Positions 45,047 to 49,861 of a stretch of DNA of 57,024 nucleotides are shown here, one piece after another. The notes beneath the pieces are model-generated. The model ran no database searches. It saw only the letters and a list, made by a program, of their open reading frames with translations, and had not been told where the DNA came from. The position numbers and the translations under genes are program-made. Position 1 is the first letter of the stretch. Each line of letters starts with the position of its first letter. This stretch comes from an uncultured Eubacteriales bacterium (GTDB taxonomy: Bacteria > Bacillota > Clostridia > Christensenellales > Aristaeellaceae), in the NCBI GenBank assembly GCA_902799465.1, contig CADCAS010000033.1, positions 1 through 57,024 on the forward strand, in the 5' to 3' direction.

Positions 45047-46573
45047 CTACCCCCTTCGCCCCTCCCGCTCCAGAATCTTCAGCGACACCAGCAGGTACAG
45101 GCGCTTGTCGGGGTCGTTGAGTTTGAGCTCCACCAGCTCGTTGATCTTCCTGAGGCGGTAGAGGAGGGTGGTGCGGTGGATGATGAGGCGTTCGGAGGTG
45201 CGGGGGATGTCGCGCTCGAGGAGGAGGTAGGCGCGCAGGGTCTCGAAGTAGGGGGTGTCGTGGGCGGCGTCGTGGGCCATGAGGCGGATGAGCTCCGGGG
45301 CGACCAGGTGATTGAGCGCCATGGGAGCCGGGAGGCCGTCCAGCAGGGTGTCCAGGGCGCAGTCGGAGAAGGGCACGATCCAGCGCTCGGAGCGCAGCTC
45401 GAAGGCGCGCTCCAGGGCCAGCTCCGCCTGCCGCCACGCCACGGGCCAGTCCCGGAGGGCGCGCACCGGGGAGGACACCCCGGCGTAGAGGCAGTAGTCC
45501 CGGCACAGCGGCGACAGGCGGTGGCTGAGCCGCGCGGGAGTGGTGGGGTCCTTCCGCAGGTTCAGCACCACGCACTGCTGCCGGTCGTTGAACATGATAT
45601 AGCCCTCGGGAAAGGCGCGGAACAGCTCGGAGTGCAGGGCGTGGGCCATGAGGATGCTGTCGTCGGGCCGCTGCTGGCGCATGCGGATGCACAGCACCGA
45701 ATCGCTGCGCTGCCAGTCCAGCATGCGGGTCAGCTGGCCGATCTCCTGGGGCTCGGTGGGGCGGCCCTCCAGCAGGTCGTAGACGATGTCGTCCATGCTG
45801 CGGTGGGGACGGTCCACGCCCAGGCGCTTGCGGCCCAGCAGCTCCATGGCCCGCTGGGTCAGCACCTCGGTGAGGCGGTAGTCCGCCCGACGGAAGCCCC
45901 GGCGGTATTTGACCACCAGCAGCCGCCCCCGGTAGATCTCCCCCTCCCACAGGTTCATGTACAGGCAGGAGGGCTGGTTGGGGGAGCCCTCCCACAGCTG
46001 CGCCTCCCGGTGGACGTAGGTCTCCAGGTACTCCGTGTCGTTCTTGAAGTCGTCGATGATGATGCGGGGGATGAACTCCCGGGACGAGGACATGATGTAG
46101 TCCGGGGGCAGCACCTGGGACAGCTCCTGCGAGCGGGCGATCATCACAAACCAGTCGTCGTGGATGCAGATGGGGTTCTCCAGCAGCGCCGCGCCCGCCT
46201 CGCACAGCTCGTTCAGGCTGGCGTTCTGAAACACCAGCTCGTCCAGCCGGCGCTCCTGGGCGCGGAAGCGGTCGAACAGCTCCAGCAGCGCGTCCAGCAG
46301 CCGCGCCGGGTCCGCGCCGGGACAGACCAGCCCCGCGCTGCCCGTCTCCATCGGCCCGGCGCTGGCATATCCGCCCGGAAAGGCCGCGGCATCCCCGGCC
46401 TCCACCACATAGAGGATGTCGTCCGAAACCGCCATCCCCGCCCGGTAGCGCCGCGCGTCCGTAAACCGCGCCGTCCCCGCCCCCACCGCGCGGCAGGCAA
46501 ACCCCGCGCGGGTCAGCTCCTCCTCAAGCGTGGGCAGATCAGGGTGCATGTGCAGCATGGCGGTTGTGTCCAT
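45047..46573 (-). CDS. PucR/CdaR-family transcriptional regulator
   Basis: 508 residues. The C-terminal PucR helix-turn-helix reads LLERDIPRTSERLIIHRTTLLYRLRKINELVELKLNDPDKRLYLLVSLKIL. Upstream lies a GGDEF-like/PucR middle region (DSVLCIRMRQQRPDDSILMAHALHSELFRAFPEGYIMFNDRQQCVVLN) and an N-terminal sensory part. ATG 46573 is chosen because AAAGGAGGCC lies just before it; a longer frame runs into heptad DNA. It is transcribed divergently from the corrinoid methyltransferase genes. PucR members often sit beside corrinoid/UroD methyltransferase genes in Clostridia, so it is the likely regulator of that module. Confidence 0.88.
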   Translation of the reverse strand: MDTTAMLHMHPDLPTLEEELTRAGFACRAVGAGTARFTDARRYRAGMAVSDDILYVVEAGDAAAFPGGYASAGPMETGSAGLVCPGADPARLLDALLELFDRFRAQERRLDELVFQNASLNELCEAGAALLENPICIHDDWFVMIARSQELSQVLPPDYIMSSSREFIPRIIIDDFKNDTEYLETYVHREAQLWEGSPNQPSCLYMNLWEGEIYRGRLLVVKYRRGFRRADYRLTEVLTQRAMELLGRKRLGVDRPHRSMDDIVYDLLEGRPTEPQEIGQLTRMLDWQRSDSVLCIRMRQQRPDDSILMAHALHSELFRAFPEGYIMFNDRQQCVVLNLRKDPTTPARLSHRLSPLCRDYCLYAGVSSPVRALRDWPVAWRQAELALERAFELRSERWIVPFSDCALDTLLDGLPAPMALNHLVAPELIRLMAHDAAHDTPYFETLRAYLLLERDIPRTSERLIIHRTTLLYRLRKINELVELKLNDPDKRLYLLVSLKILEREGRRG

Positions 46574-46595
46574 GGGAAGGCCTCCTTTTTGGGGA

Positions 46596-46917
46596 AATTG
46601 ATAATGGAGAATGGAAAATGGAGAATGGCGGTGCAAATCCCTTCGGGATTTGTTTTATTTGGGCGCTGTTCCTTTTAGCAGGTCAAATGGAAGTCAGCGG
46701 GGAACGACCTCTCAGTCTGGCCTGCGGCCAGACAGCTCCCCTGAAAGGGGAGCCAAGGAAGGACGGCAATCGGTTTTAATTATCCTAAAATGATTGCAGC
46801 AGCAACGATTCTTATGGAAGGGAACCAAGGAGGACGCGGACCGGCACTTCATTCCTAATTCCTAATTCCCAATTCCCAATTCCCAATTCTCCATTCTCCA
46901 TTCCCCATTCCCCATTA
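46596..46917. repeat. Heptad inverted element with partial type 1 MITE core
   Basis: Left arm ATGGAGA/TGGAAAA units (46602-46627), core AAATCCCTTCGGGATTTG, then a fragment CGGGGAACGACCTCTCAGTC ... GAAAGGGGAGCC (46697-46757) related to MITE interior type 1 but without its termini. Right arm AATTCCC/CATTCTC/CATTCCC units (46850-46915). It occupies most of the PucR to methyltransferase gap; 46918-47113 holds the promoter. Confidence 0.7.
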
Positions 46918-46991
46918 TATCCTCATTTTTGAGGAATGAAAATGGCCCATTTATAAAATGTGTGGAAAATTAACAATTTGTTTGAAAGGAA

Positions 46992-47019
46992 TTGACACGG
47001 CTTTTGCGGCTATGATACT
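46992..47019 (+). promoter_or_regulatory. Possible promoter of the methyltransferase operon
   Basis: TTGACA (46992-46997) with GATACT (47014-47019) at 16 bases. The same stretch also reads TTGACACGGCTTTTGCG, one base from a sigma-54 -24/-12 pattern. The choice cannot be made from sequence. Confidence 0.45.
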
Positions 47020-47113
47020 ATTCTATTGGAAAGTTTGCGCGGGCTGATTGAATCGGCCGTGCATAATAATGTGGAAACCGAAGCACTGCGATCAATGACA
47101 AGGGAGGAAAACC

Positions 47114-48166
47114 ATGCTTACCGCAAAAGAGAACATGCGCGAAGTCATTCGCGGCGGCAACCCTGACCGCGTCGTCAACCAGTACGAAGCCATCTCGCTG
47201 CTCTTCCACCCGTTCCTGCTGGCCTCGCCGCTTCTGAAGAAGGGCGATATGAACGTGGTCAACGCCTGGGGCGTGACCAACTCCTTCCCGGCCAACGTGC
47301 CCGGCGCGTTCCCGGTGCACACCCCGGACAAGATCGTGGTCAAGGACATCGAGTCCTGGCGCGACTACGTCAAGGCCCCCAGCCTCAAGTTCCCCGAGGA
47401 GCTGTGGAACGTGGCCCAGGGCATGTACGACGCCGTGGACGGCACCAAGTCCTACAAGGCGACCTTCGTGGCCCCCGGCCTGTTTGAGCAGAGCCACCAC
47501 CTGTGCTCCATGGAGGAGGCCCTGATGAACTACATGGAGTATCCGGACGAGATGCACGACCTGATCAAGTATCTCACCGACTGGGAGCTGGAGCTGGCCG
47601 AGGGCATCTGTTCCCGCCTGCATCCCGACGCCATCTTCCATCACGACGACTTCGGAAGCGAGCGCAACTCCTTCCTGCGTCCCGAGATCTTCGCCGATTT
47701 CTTCCTGGATGCCTACAAGGAGATCTACGGCTACTACCACAGCCACGGCGTGGAGTTCATTTTCCACCACTCCGACAGCTACTGCGCCAACCTGATCCCC
47801 ATCATGATCGAGATGGGCATCGACGTGTGGCAGGGCTGCATGCACTCCAACAACGTGCCCGAGCTCATCAGGCAGTACGGCGGCAAGATGACCTTCATGG
47901 GCGAGATCGACAACAAGCAGGTGGACTTCGAGGGCTGGACCTACGCCGACTGCGAGAAGGCCGCGCTGAACGCCATCAACACCTGCGGGGCCGCCGCCGA
48001 CGGCAAGTACTTCATCCCCTGCATCACCCAGGGCGGTCCGGGCTCCCTGTACGAGGGCACCTACAAGGGCCTCTGGGACGCCATCGACAAGTACAACCGC
48101 GACAAGTTCGGCTTCACCCAGCAGCAGCTGGACGACGCCCGCCCGCCGATCTCCATCATGTTCTGA
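47114..48166 (+). CDS. UroD-family corrinoid methyltransferase
   Basis: 350 residues of the uroporphyrinogen-decarboxylase-like superfamily (MtaA/MtbA branch), which move methyl groups to or from a corrinoid protein. Seen: TAKENMREVIRGGNPDRVVNQYE (typical UroD N-terminus), HHDDFGSERNSFLRPEIFADF, FIFHHSDSYCANLIPIMIEMGIDVWQG (residues 218-241) and IPCITQGGPGS (Cys303). The zinc ligands of MtaA are H-x-C and a distant Cys; here the middle position is Ser (HHS), with Cys224 four residues later. The neighbour is a cobalamin-binding protein, so the true partner is at hand. The substrate is unknown. Confidence 0.85.
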   Translation: MLTAKENMREVIRGGNPDRVVNQYEAISLLFHPFLLASPLLKKGDMNVVNAWGVTNSFPANVPGAFPVHTPDKIVVKDIESWRDYVKAPSLKFPEELWNVAQGMYDAVDGTKSYKATFVAPGLFEQSHHLCSMEEALMNYMEYPDEMHDLIKYLTDWELELAEGICSRLHPDAIFHHDDFGSERNSFLRPEIFADFFLDAYKEIYGYYHSHGVEFIFHHSDSYCANLIPIMIEMGIDVWQGCMHSNNVPELIRQYGGKMTFMGEIDNKQVDFEGWTYADCEKAALNAINTCGAAADGKYFIPCITQGGPGSLYEGTYKGLWDAIDKYNRDKFGFTQQQLDDARPPISIMF

Positions 48167-48215
48167 TTTTTTCGGCAGCATCTTGACGTCTTTTACCGAA
48201 AGGAGTATTATTAAC

Positions 48216-48845
48216 ATGAGCATTCAGAATGTCAACGATCTGGTTACCCGCGGCAAGGCCAAGCTGATCACCGCCGCCGTGCAGGAGACCCTGGACGAGG
48301 GCGTCGCGGCCACCGATATCCTGTCCGCGATGATCGACGCCATGGACGTGGTGGGCGAGAAGTTCAAAAACAATGAGATCTTCGTGCCCGAGATGCTGAT
48401 CTCCGCCAAGGCCATGAAGAAGGGCGTCGAGGTGCTGAAGCCCCATCTGGCCACCGGCGCGGTGGGCAGCATGGGCAAGATGATCATGGGCACCGTGGCG
48501 GGCGACCTCCACGACATCGGCAAGAACCTGGTCATCATGATGATCGAGTCCGCGGGCTTCGAGGTCATCGACCTGGGCGTGGACGTGCCGGTGGAGAAGT
48601 TCATCCAGACCTATGAGGAGAACCCCGACACCAAGATCATCGGCTGCTCCGCTCTGCTGACCACCACGATGCCCGCCCTGGCGGACACCGTCGCCGCCAT
48701 CAACGCGGCGCCCTGGCGCGGCAAGGTCAAGGTCATGGTGGGCGGCGCGCCCATCACCCAGGAGTTCGCGGACAAGATCGGCGCCGATGCCTATACCCCT
48801 GACGCCGCCTCCGCCGCCAAGGCCGCCAAGGAACTGGTCGCGTAA
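48216..48845 (+). CDS. Corrinoid (cobalamin-binding) methyltransferase protein
   Basis: 209 residues. An N-terminal four-helix cap (NDLVTRGKAKLITAAVQETLDEGVAATDIL) precedes a Rossmann B12-binding domain. That domain has the DLHDIGKNLV motif (His99 as lower Co ligand), FEVIDLGVDVPVEKF and VMVGGAPITQEFADKIGADAY. Same architecture as MtaC/MtmC/MttC. AAGGAG precedes ATG 48216. It is 49 bases from the UroD gene, one operon, followed by a strong terminator. Confidence 0.95.
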   Translation: MSIQNVNDLVTRGKAKLITAAVQETLDEGVAATDILSAMIDAMDVVGEKFKNNEIFVPEMLISAKAMKKGVEVLKPHLATGAVGSMGKMIMGTVAGDLHDIGKNLVIMMIESAGFEVIDLGVDVPVEKFIQTYEENPDTKIIGCSALLTTTMPALADTVAAINAAPWRGKVKVMVGGAPITQEFADKIGADAYTPDAASAAKAAKELVA

Positions 48846-48856
48846 GACGTGTTGAC

Positions 48857-48887
48857 AAGAGCCGGGATGCTTCCCGGCTCTTTTTTT
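48857..48887 (+). terminator. Terminator of the corrinoid operon
   Basis: AAGAGCCGGGA pairs with TCCCGGCTCTT, then TTTTT. Confidence 0.92.
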
Positions 48888-48905
48888 GAATCGGGAAAAC
48901 TCATA

Positions 48906-49257
48906 AATGGAGAATGGGGAATGGATGTTGTAATCCTTTGGATTTCTTTCTATTGAACAAGCATCCGTTATCACGAGTCTTGCCCCTTTAATCAGACAAA
49001 TCCGCAAGGGTATCTATTCAGTTCTGCTGTGATAAGTGGAGATTGTCCGAGGCAACGGGGAACGACCTCTCAGTCACCGACTTCGTCGGCGACAGCTCCC
49101 CTGAAGCTCCCCTTCCAGGGGAGCTGTCAGCCGTTAGGCTGACTGAGAGGTCGTCCCCCGCAGCCTGCCAAGTCTCTGTTTGTCGCAGAACTGAACAGTT
49201 ACCCGCAAGGATTTGTTCCTTCATTCCCAATTCCCCATTCCCAATTCCCCATTCAAC
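48906..49257. repeat. Heptad inverted element interrupted by a MITE
   Basis: Left arm GGAGAATGGGGAATGG, right arm CCCAATT/CCCCATT units (49227-49256). The right core motif AAATCCGCAAGGATTT is split by the MITE at 49010-49202. The left motif is a variant, AATCCTTTGGATTT. Confidence 0.82.
49010..49202. mobile_element. MITE-like element, interior type 1 (opposite orientation)
   Basis: 193 bp. Termini GTATCTATTCAGTTCTG and CAGAACTGAACAGTTAC with exact 8-bp duplication CCGCAAGG (49002-49009, 49203-49210). The reverse complement aligns along its whole length with 31177-31350, apart from a longer middle hairpin. Confidence 0.92.
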
Positions 49258-49321
49258 GTAACGCTTTCCATTGTCGATCCACCAATGCTGACTTTCAACC
49301 GACAACCACTGGAGGGATACC

Positions 49322-49861
49322 ATGAACTACGAGGAGCTTGCGAGGCTGGCCGAGGCGGCGGGGTTCACGGCGTGGAAGCCGCTGGACGGCGCGACGCTGG
49401 AGGTCAAGCGCGAGGTGCGCGACATGTGCGCCACCAACACCTGCGGCATGTACGAGAAGCGCTGGAGCTGTCCCCCCGGCTGCGGCAGTCTGGAGGACTG
49501 CGCCGGGCGGCTGGGACAGTATCCCGGCGGCATACTGGTACAGACCTACGGCGACATCGAGGACGGCTTCGACTTCGAGGCCATGATGGAGATCGAACAG
49601 GAACACAAGGCGCACTTCCAGCAGATGTACGCCGAGCTGCGCAAGGCCGGAGCGGACGTGTTCGCCCTGGGCGCGGGCGCATGTATCCAGTGCCGGGAAT
49701 GCACCTACCCCGACCAGCCCTGCCGCTTCCCCGACCAGATGGTCTCCTCCATGGAGGCCTATGGGCTCGTGGTGCTCGAGGTCTGCAAGGCCAACGGCCT
49801 GCAATACTACTACGGCGCCGACAAGATGGCATATACGAGCTGCCTTCTTATCAGGGAGTAG
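49322..49861 (+). CDS. DUF2284 metal-binding protein
   Basis: 179 residues with two Cys clusters typical of DUF2284/COG5423: CATNTCGMYEKRWSCPPGCG near the N-terminus and CIQCRECTYPDQPCRFP in the middle. The spacing suggests an iron-sulfur or zinc site. Members often lie beside corrinoid methyltransferase genes, as here, and may act in reductive activation or electron transfer (inference). GGAGGG precedes the ATG. Its stop TAG (49859-49861) is supplied by the first GTAGGGA unit of a heptad array, so the C-terminal IRE may be repeat-derived. Confidence 0.88.
   Translation: MNYEELARLAEAAGFTAWKPLDGATLEVKREVRDMCATNTCGMYEKRWSCPPGCGSLEDCAGRLGQYPGGILVQTYGDIEDGFDFEAMMEIEQEHKAHFQQMYAELRKAGADVFALGAGACIQCRECTYPDQPCRFPDQMVSSMEAYGLVVLEVCKANGLQYYYGADKMAYTSCLLIRE

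Follow-up and report, generated by a model that had tools for sequence, protein, structure and literature searches.

What reaction is served by a small locus in which a PucR-family regulator, a UroD-superfamily protein, a corrinoid (B12-carrying) protein and a DUF2284 protein are encoded together? We studied this locus in a 57,024-nucleotide stretch of DNA (the window), which is the contig 33 stretch (CADCAS010000033.1) of a 2.9-Mb, 95% complete assembly of an uncultured Eubacteriales bacterium whose nearest named relatives are metagenome-assembled rumen Clostridia. The original prediction described an orphan corrinoid methyltransferase module with a divergent PucR gene. All four genes were present as placed, and the domain matches and conserved gene sets presented below upheld their assignment to corrinoid methyl transfer. 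We consider it likely that these genes make up the substrate half of a three- or four-component corrinoid demethylase acting on methyl ethers or similar compounds, from which methyl-tetrahydrofolate would be passed to the Wood-Ljungdahl pathway.

Complete operons in relatives of the window locus

Bacterial proteins of the UroD superfamily are established substrate methyltransferases (methyltransferase I, MT-I), namely MtvB, OdmB, VdmB, MtoB and CdmB (PMC13222342, PMC8630106), and the second methyltransferase (MT-II) of these systems is pterin-binding. The characterised substrates are methoxy-aromatics for MtvB, OdmB, VdmB and MtoB and haloalkanes for CdmB (PMC8630106, PMC13222342). Since such proteins are known MT-I, a partner of the MttB or MtaB type, as had been anticipated, is not expected here; the partners that are truly missing are the pterin-binding MT-II and the reductive activator RACo. 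The proposed MT-I gene lies next to its cognate corrinoid gene, as in the proposed demethylase class.

A scan of genome contigs with the UroD protein of the window (P0002) returned more than 430 relatives; the best 80, with 62-92% identity over nearly the full length, were used for gene calling. Their hosts were chiefly Oscillospiraceae and Lachnospiraceae from gut and rumen, and the named isolates among them included Pseudoflavonifractor sp. MSJ-30, Lachnoclostridium sp. An196, Sporobacter termitidis and Blautia wexlerae. Within these 80 loci a corrinoid protein (CorP) was encoded in 30, PucR in 30, DUF2284 in 24, a pterin MT-II in 23 and RACo in 20. The order PucR<>UroD-MT-II-CorP-RACo-DUF2284 (<>, divergent) was found in L061, L063 (Pseudoflavonifractor sp. 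MSJ-30), L065, L066 and L076, and UroD-MT-II-CorP-RACo-DUF2284 in L092 of B. wexlerae. Pfam and NCBIfam searches assigned the MT-II of these relatives to PRK07535 (339 bits, above the cut-off) and the activator to PF14574, Raco_middle and Fer2. The label "orphan" does not fit a system of which relatives carry the full operon and sister species keep MT-II and RACo elsewhere (see below).

The arrangement PucR<>UroD-CorP(-DUF2284) was kept in sister genomes (UroD identity 84-92%) and is therefore not due to chance; the position of PucR was the same in those genomes and in the complete operons of relatives. In the tree, the shortened loci of the window's genus formed a single clade amid complete ones, with modest supports of 81-87, and an economical reading is that MT-II and RACo would have been moved or lost from the operon in the ancestor of this genus. 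The O-demethylases known from acetogens and archaea (MtvABC, Odm/Vdm, MtoABCD) have the same four parts as the complete relatives: a UroD MT-I, a corrinoid protein, a pterin MT-II and RACo. The window locus differs from them in lacking MT-II and RACo and in having the recurrent DUF2284 and PucR genes. The Cdm system of Acetobacterium dehalogenans (CdmBCA) is alike in its UroD MT-I, corrinoid protein and MT-II (PMC13222342). The architecture is known; what sets the system apart is a widespread, uncharacterised MT-I subclade and the recurrent DUF2284 partner.

Encoded proteins and control region

P0002 matched PF01208 with an E value of 5.5e-8 (32.6 bits), covering residues 133-289 only; this partial, low-scoring match and the corrinoid partner gene do not fit HemE (uroporphyrinogen decarboxylase). 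Its AlphaFold2 model (pLDDT 93, pTM 0.92) was closest, among solved structures, to the Methanosarcina mazei methyltransferase 4ay7 (E 6e-10, probability 1.00, TM 0.64-0.66), which we take to be MtaA. The next structural matches were uroporphyrinogen decarboxylases, and the CdmB structures were not among the matches. Sequence searches of solved structures with P0002 and two profiles gave nothing relevant, and no characterised member of its MT-I family was found. P0002 is most likely the substrate enzyme of the system, within an uncharacterised subclade.

Fourteen positions of P0002 were invariant in 50 relatives: E25, H69, E125, H128, H176, H177, D179, H218, H219, D221, Q240, N267, C303 and Q306. 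The H219-x-D221 pair aligned with the His-Ser-Cys motif of a second UroD protein found in sister genomes (see below) and C303 fell in the region expected for a third metal ligand. His219, Asp221 and Cys303 probably constitute a metal site. The motif E-x14-E-x20-H, presumably the zinc motif of OdmB and VdmB, was not used as evidence; with Glu fixed it was absent in 49 of the 50 relatives, and its relaxed form, present in P0002, was discarded as it also occurred in 20% of shuffled sequences. In O-methyltransferases, as opposed to S-methyltransferases, carboxylates are reported to take the place of Cys ligands (PMC10418091), and both CdmB and a Moorella O-demethylase are reported to be zinc-free (PMC13222342). 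CdmB is set apart by its description as metal-free with a cavity mainly of aromatic residues (PMC13222342), in contrast to the invariant His, Asp and Cys of P0002.

The corrinoid protein (P0003) presented B12-binding (3e-23) and B12-binding_2 (3e-17) domains and, at residue 97, the sequence DLHDIG, which corresponds to the DxHxxG motif; its closest solved structure was 1y80 (7e-54). The best models for P0003 were those of glycine betaine and methylamine systems (MtgC, 194 bits, and dimethylamine; compare MtbC and the trimethylamine systems), but it scored below their curated cut-offs and its genome has no MttB-superfamily gene.

The DUF2284 protein matched PF10050 with 165 bits (Pfam gathering cut-off, 25), and its AlphaFold2 model had a pLDDT of 91. 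Ten cysteines were invariant in the alignment of 24 relatives, which suggests two [4Fe-4S] clusters. No solved structure matched this model significantly; kinship of the fold to nitroreductases or epoxyqueuosine reductase was weak (best E 0.01) and is not claimed. In each of the 24 loci out of 80 that have DUF2284, a corrinoid protein is encoded too (no exceptions; Fisher 4e-15, the loci not being independent), and DUF2284 was present in 19 of the 20 loci carrying RACo. The simplest idea is that DUF2284 may donate electrons in corrinoid reactivation; a literature search found no functional study of the family.

Table 1 Features of the locus, in window positions
Feature	Coordinates	Strand	Description
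PucR-family regulator	45047..46573	-	509 aa; HTH_30 4e-17, GGDEF_2 1e-10; divergent from UroD gene
Control region	46926..47021	+	Two conserved boxes and sigma-70-like promoter; nine-locus alignment, promoter scan
UroD-superfamily methyltransferase (P0002), proposed MT-I	47114..48166	+	350 aa; PF01208
Corrinoid (B12-carrying) protein (P0003)	48216..48845	+	209 aa; B12-binding, B12-binding_2
Intrinsic-terminator-like hairpin 3' of corrinoid gene	48857..48882	+	11-pair stem, T run
DUF2284 protein	49322..49861	+	179 aa; PF10050 1.3e-48

The promoter upstream of the UroD gene consists of TTGACA at 46992 and a -10 element, TACTAT, ending at 47021. Together with two upstream boxes it was conserved across nine aligned loci, one of which (L061) is a complete operon, and the boxes are possible PucR sites. 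For PucR itself, the ATG at 46573 was preferred as start over the TTG at 46636. Good ribosome-binding sites were read at the UroD, corrinoid and DUF2284 genes. A Rfam search of the control and locus region matched no riboswitch or other family, and RNA structure upstream of the UroD gene was not better than that of shuffled sequences. About 440 bases of repeat-bearing intergenic DNA separate the terminator-like hairpin from the DUF2284 gene; because of this strong hairpin and the repeats, UroD-CorP is the operon proper, and DUF2284 may be an associated gene with separate transcription. The intergenic repeats, GGAACGACCTCTCAGTC and its inverse and the CCCCATTCCC type, were located at positions 46701, 49059, 31285 and 4651 of the window; they flank the module, recur across the window and look like small mobile repeats.

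Partner genes in the window's genome and its genus

Family searches of the window's own genome found no MttB (PF06253), no MtaB (PF12176) and no RACo/RamA-type C-terminal domain, in agreement with the lack of such enzymes noted in the original prediction, and also no MetE and no dedicated MT-II. P0003 was the sole B12-binding_2 protein found. There were two URO-D matches in all; the second protein (L037:9430-10479, contig 2, 349 aa) has a His-His-Cys-Gly motif and a late Cys, with no corrinoid gene nearby. The single pterin-binding protein was AcsE, above its curated cut-off, which makes it the sole MT-II candidate found. It clusters with AcsC, AcsD and MetF, so the genome encodes the Wood-Ljungdahl methyl branch. 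This acs cluster (L035:7682-13074, contig 69) comprises AcsE, AcsC, AcsD, a CooC-like gene and MetF, with an unrelated gene of 126 aa inside it, and has no RACo (AcsV) beside AcsE, in contrast to L166.

The window's genus is represented by 28 genomes. RACo was found in all 11 sister genomes bearing a UroD orthologue, and all but one of these 11 also had an MT-II with 83% identity or more; the associations of RACo and MT-II with the UroD orthologue or its 50% paralogue gave Fisher values of 3e-4 and 2e-5, respectively, not corrected for relatedness. In most of the sister genomes examined, MT-II and RACo were placed in a second locus (locus B), which contains a transporter of sugar ABC type (two permeases with their ATPase and substrate-binding protein), a second UroD protein sharing 26-27% identity with P0002, an L-rhamnose mutarotase of 101-108 aa and the MT-II and, in several genomes, RACo and a second DUF2284. 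These assignments were confirmed with Pfam and NCBIfam; the binding protein was most like RhaS and LsrB, below their cut-offs. Locus B was seen in L154-L156 and L159-L163, its UroD protein having a His-Ser-Cys motif, with RACo often and DUF2284 sometimes; its parts were scattered in L157, L158, L162, L164 and L165. Both halves of the earlier alternative, that the UroD protein takes the substrate step or that partners lie elsewhere, hold. The window's genome is an exception, since locus B is absent from it, including its UroD protein. A search there for the conserved flank gene of locus B, as a means of telling loss from an assembly gap, found remote paralogues only; the locus either fell into an assembly gap or has been lost.

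Ten genomes of the genus lacked RACo and locus B and presented instead a match of 32-35% identity within a long open frame, probably MetH. The genus is thus split between these ten genomes and the remainder with RACo, mostly also with the UroD locus. Paralogue loci in sister genomes (L049, L050, L051 and L053) encode a UroD protein with about 50% identity to P0002, a PucR, and DASS and GPH transporters, with a corrinoid protein in L049-L051. A pterin MT-II-corrinoid fusion of 966-974 aa (L169:5191-8112, L170:2663-5560 and L171:4164-7064), whose C-terminal ~400 aa had no Pfam match, adjoins ABC transporters for carbohydrates and regulators of the AraC or LacI type; its neighbours, read by eye, also included GH43 and a probable arabinofuranosidase in one genome.

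These gene sets are consistent with the following scheme. PucR would regulate the operon that diverges from it, with the substrate as the probable signal. The UroD protein, as MT-I, would bind a methylated compound, probably at the His219/Asp221/Cys303 site, and methylate the corrinoid protein at its Co(I), a direction taken from the known systems. The methyl-corrinoid protein would then methylate tetrahydrofolate through the pterin-binding MT-II, and methyl-tetrahydrofolate would enter the Wood-Ljungdahl pathway. RACo would restore Co(I), perhaps with electrons from the Fe-S-type DUF2284 protein. In the window's genus, MT-II and RACo would act from outside the UroD operon, mostly from the sugar-transport-linked second locus.

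Several points weigh against a demethylase. The direction of methyl transfer is borrowed from known systems. P0002 is too divergent for a sequence match to any solved MT-I, unlike the enzymes of MtvABC, Odm/Vdm and MtoABCD. No other core gene was found within six genes in 34 of the 80 relatives, some of them on short contigs. Lastly, the window's genome has neither RACo nor a dedicated MT-II, which leaves the system incomplete in this 95% complete assembly.

Substrate and alternative functions

The substrates first suggested, a methoxylated aromatic or a methylamine, received no direct support. A methoxylated aromatic, with the locus as a further acetogen-type O-demethylase (Odm/Mtv/Mto), is a tentative possibility: complete relatives hold the same components, known UroD-superfamily MT-I act mostly on methoxy-aromatics (PMC13222342, PMC8630106), and the proposed metal site contains a carboxylate, as reported for O-methyltransferases (PMC10418091). 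However, no aromatic-degradation gene adjoined the loci inspected, and sugar- and carboxylate-type transporters accompany related loci.

Judged by these transporters, O-methylated sugars or sugar acids are indicated no less than methoxy-aromatics, and they are a serious candidate of about equal weight. A substrate from plant or bacterial polysaccharides, be it a methyl glycoside or an O-methylated sugar or sugar acid, is held just as tentatively. The composition of locus B, where MT-II and RACo lie with a RhaS-like ABC transporter and L-rhamnose mutarotase, hints at such a substrate, and the GPH and DASS symporters of the paralogue loci, the GPH-type transporter gene immediately 3' of the UroD gene in L130, and the carbohydrate ABC transporters and GH43 near the fusion gene agree with it. 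These links are, however, all by gene association. No transporter is encoded at the window locus, the UroD protein of locus B, just 26-27% identical to P0002, may be the one specific for sugars, and a literature search on corrinoid demethylation of methylated sugars found nothing relevant. The wider proposal, that B12-dependent UroD-superfamily methyltransferases of gut and rumen Clostridia demethylate O-methyl sugars or sugar acids into the Wood-Ljungdahl pathway and that DUF2284 serves both RACo and the corrinoid protein as a novel Fe-S redox partner, appears rather doubtful.

A role in S- or Se-methyl metabolism, akin to type 1 mlp gene clusters, is improbable. The superfamily is shared with these clusters and with methanogen MtaA and MtbA, and MtaA is the nearest fold to the P0002 model, but type 1 clusters require both Mlp2 and Mlp3 as a minimum (PMC10418091), alongside a corrinoid protein and an activator, whereas the window locus has a single UroD gene, and P0002 has H219-x-D221 with C303, invariant in the 50 relatives, instead of the His-Cys-Cys zinc site with its His-x-Cys. 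It is very improbable that P0003 supplies the B12 module for a split methionine synthase, working with a stand-alone PF02574 protein, for although the genome has such an S-methyl_trans protein and neither MetE nor a further B12-binding_2 protein, the conserved partners are UroD, MT-II, RACo, DUF2284 and PucR, with no methionine genes, and AcsE with the corrinoid iron-sulphur protein (CoFeSP) or another route could supply methionine.

A corrinoid demethylase remains the preferred reading of the locus. Its MT-I family is widespread among Oscillospiraceae and Lachnospiraceae of the gut (more than 430 loci, including B. wexlerae), and the reading ties a regulator, an MT-I subclade and the Fe-S-type DUF2284 family to one testable reaction. 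Gut O-demethylation of drugs has been attributed to systems of such architecture (PMC12915777). If the substrate is an aryl methyl ether, the family would add a large clade of gut O-demethylases, relevant to diet and drug metabolism; if it is an O-methyl sugar, it would represent a B12-dependent anaerobic route for methylated sugars.

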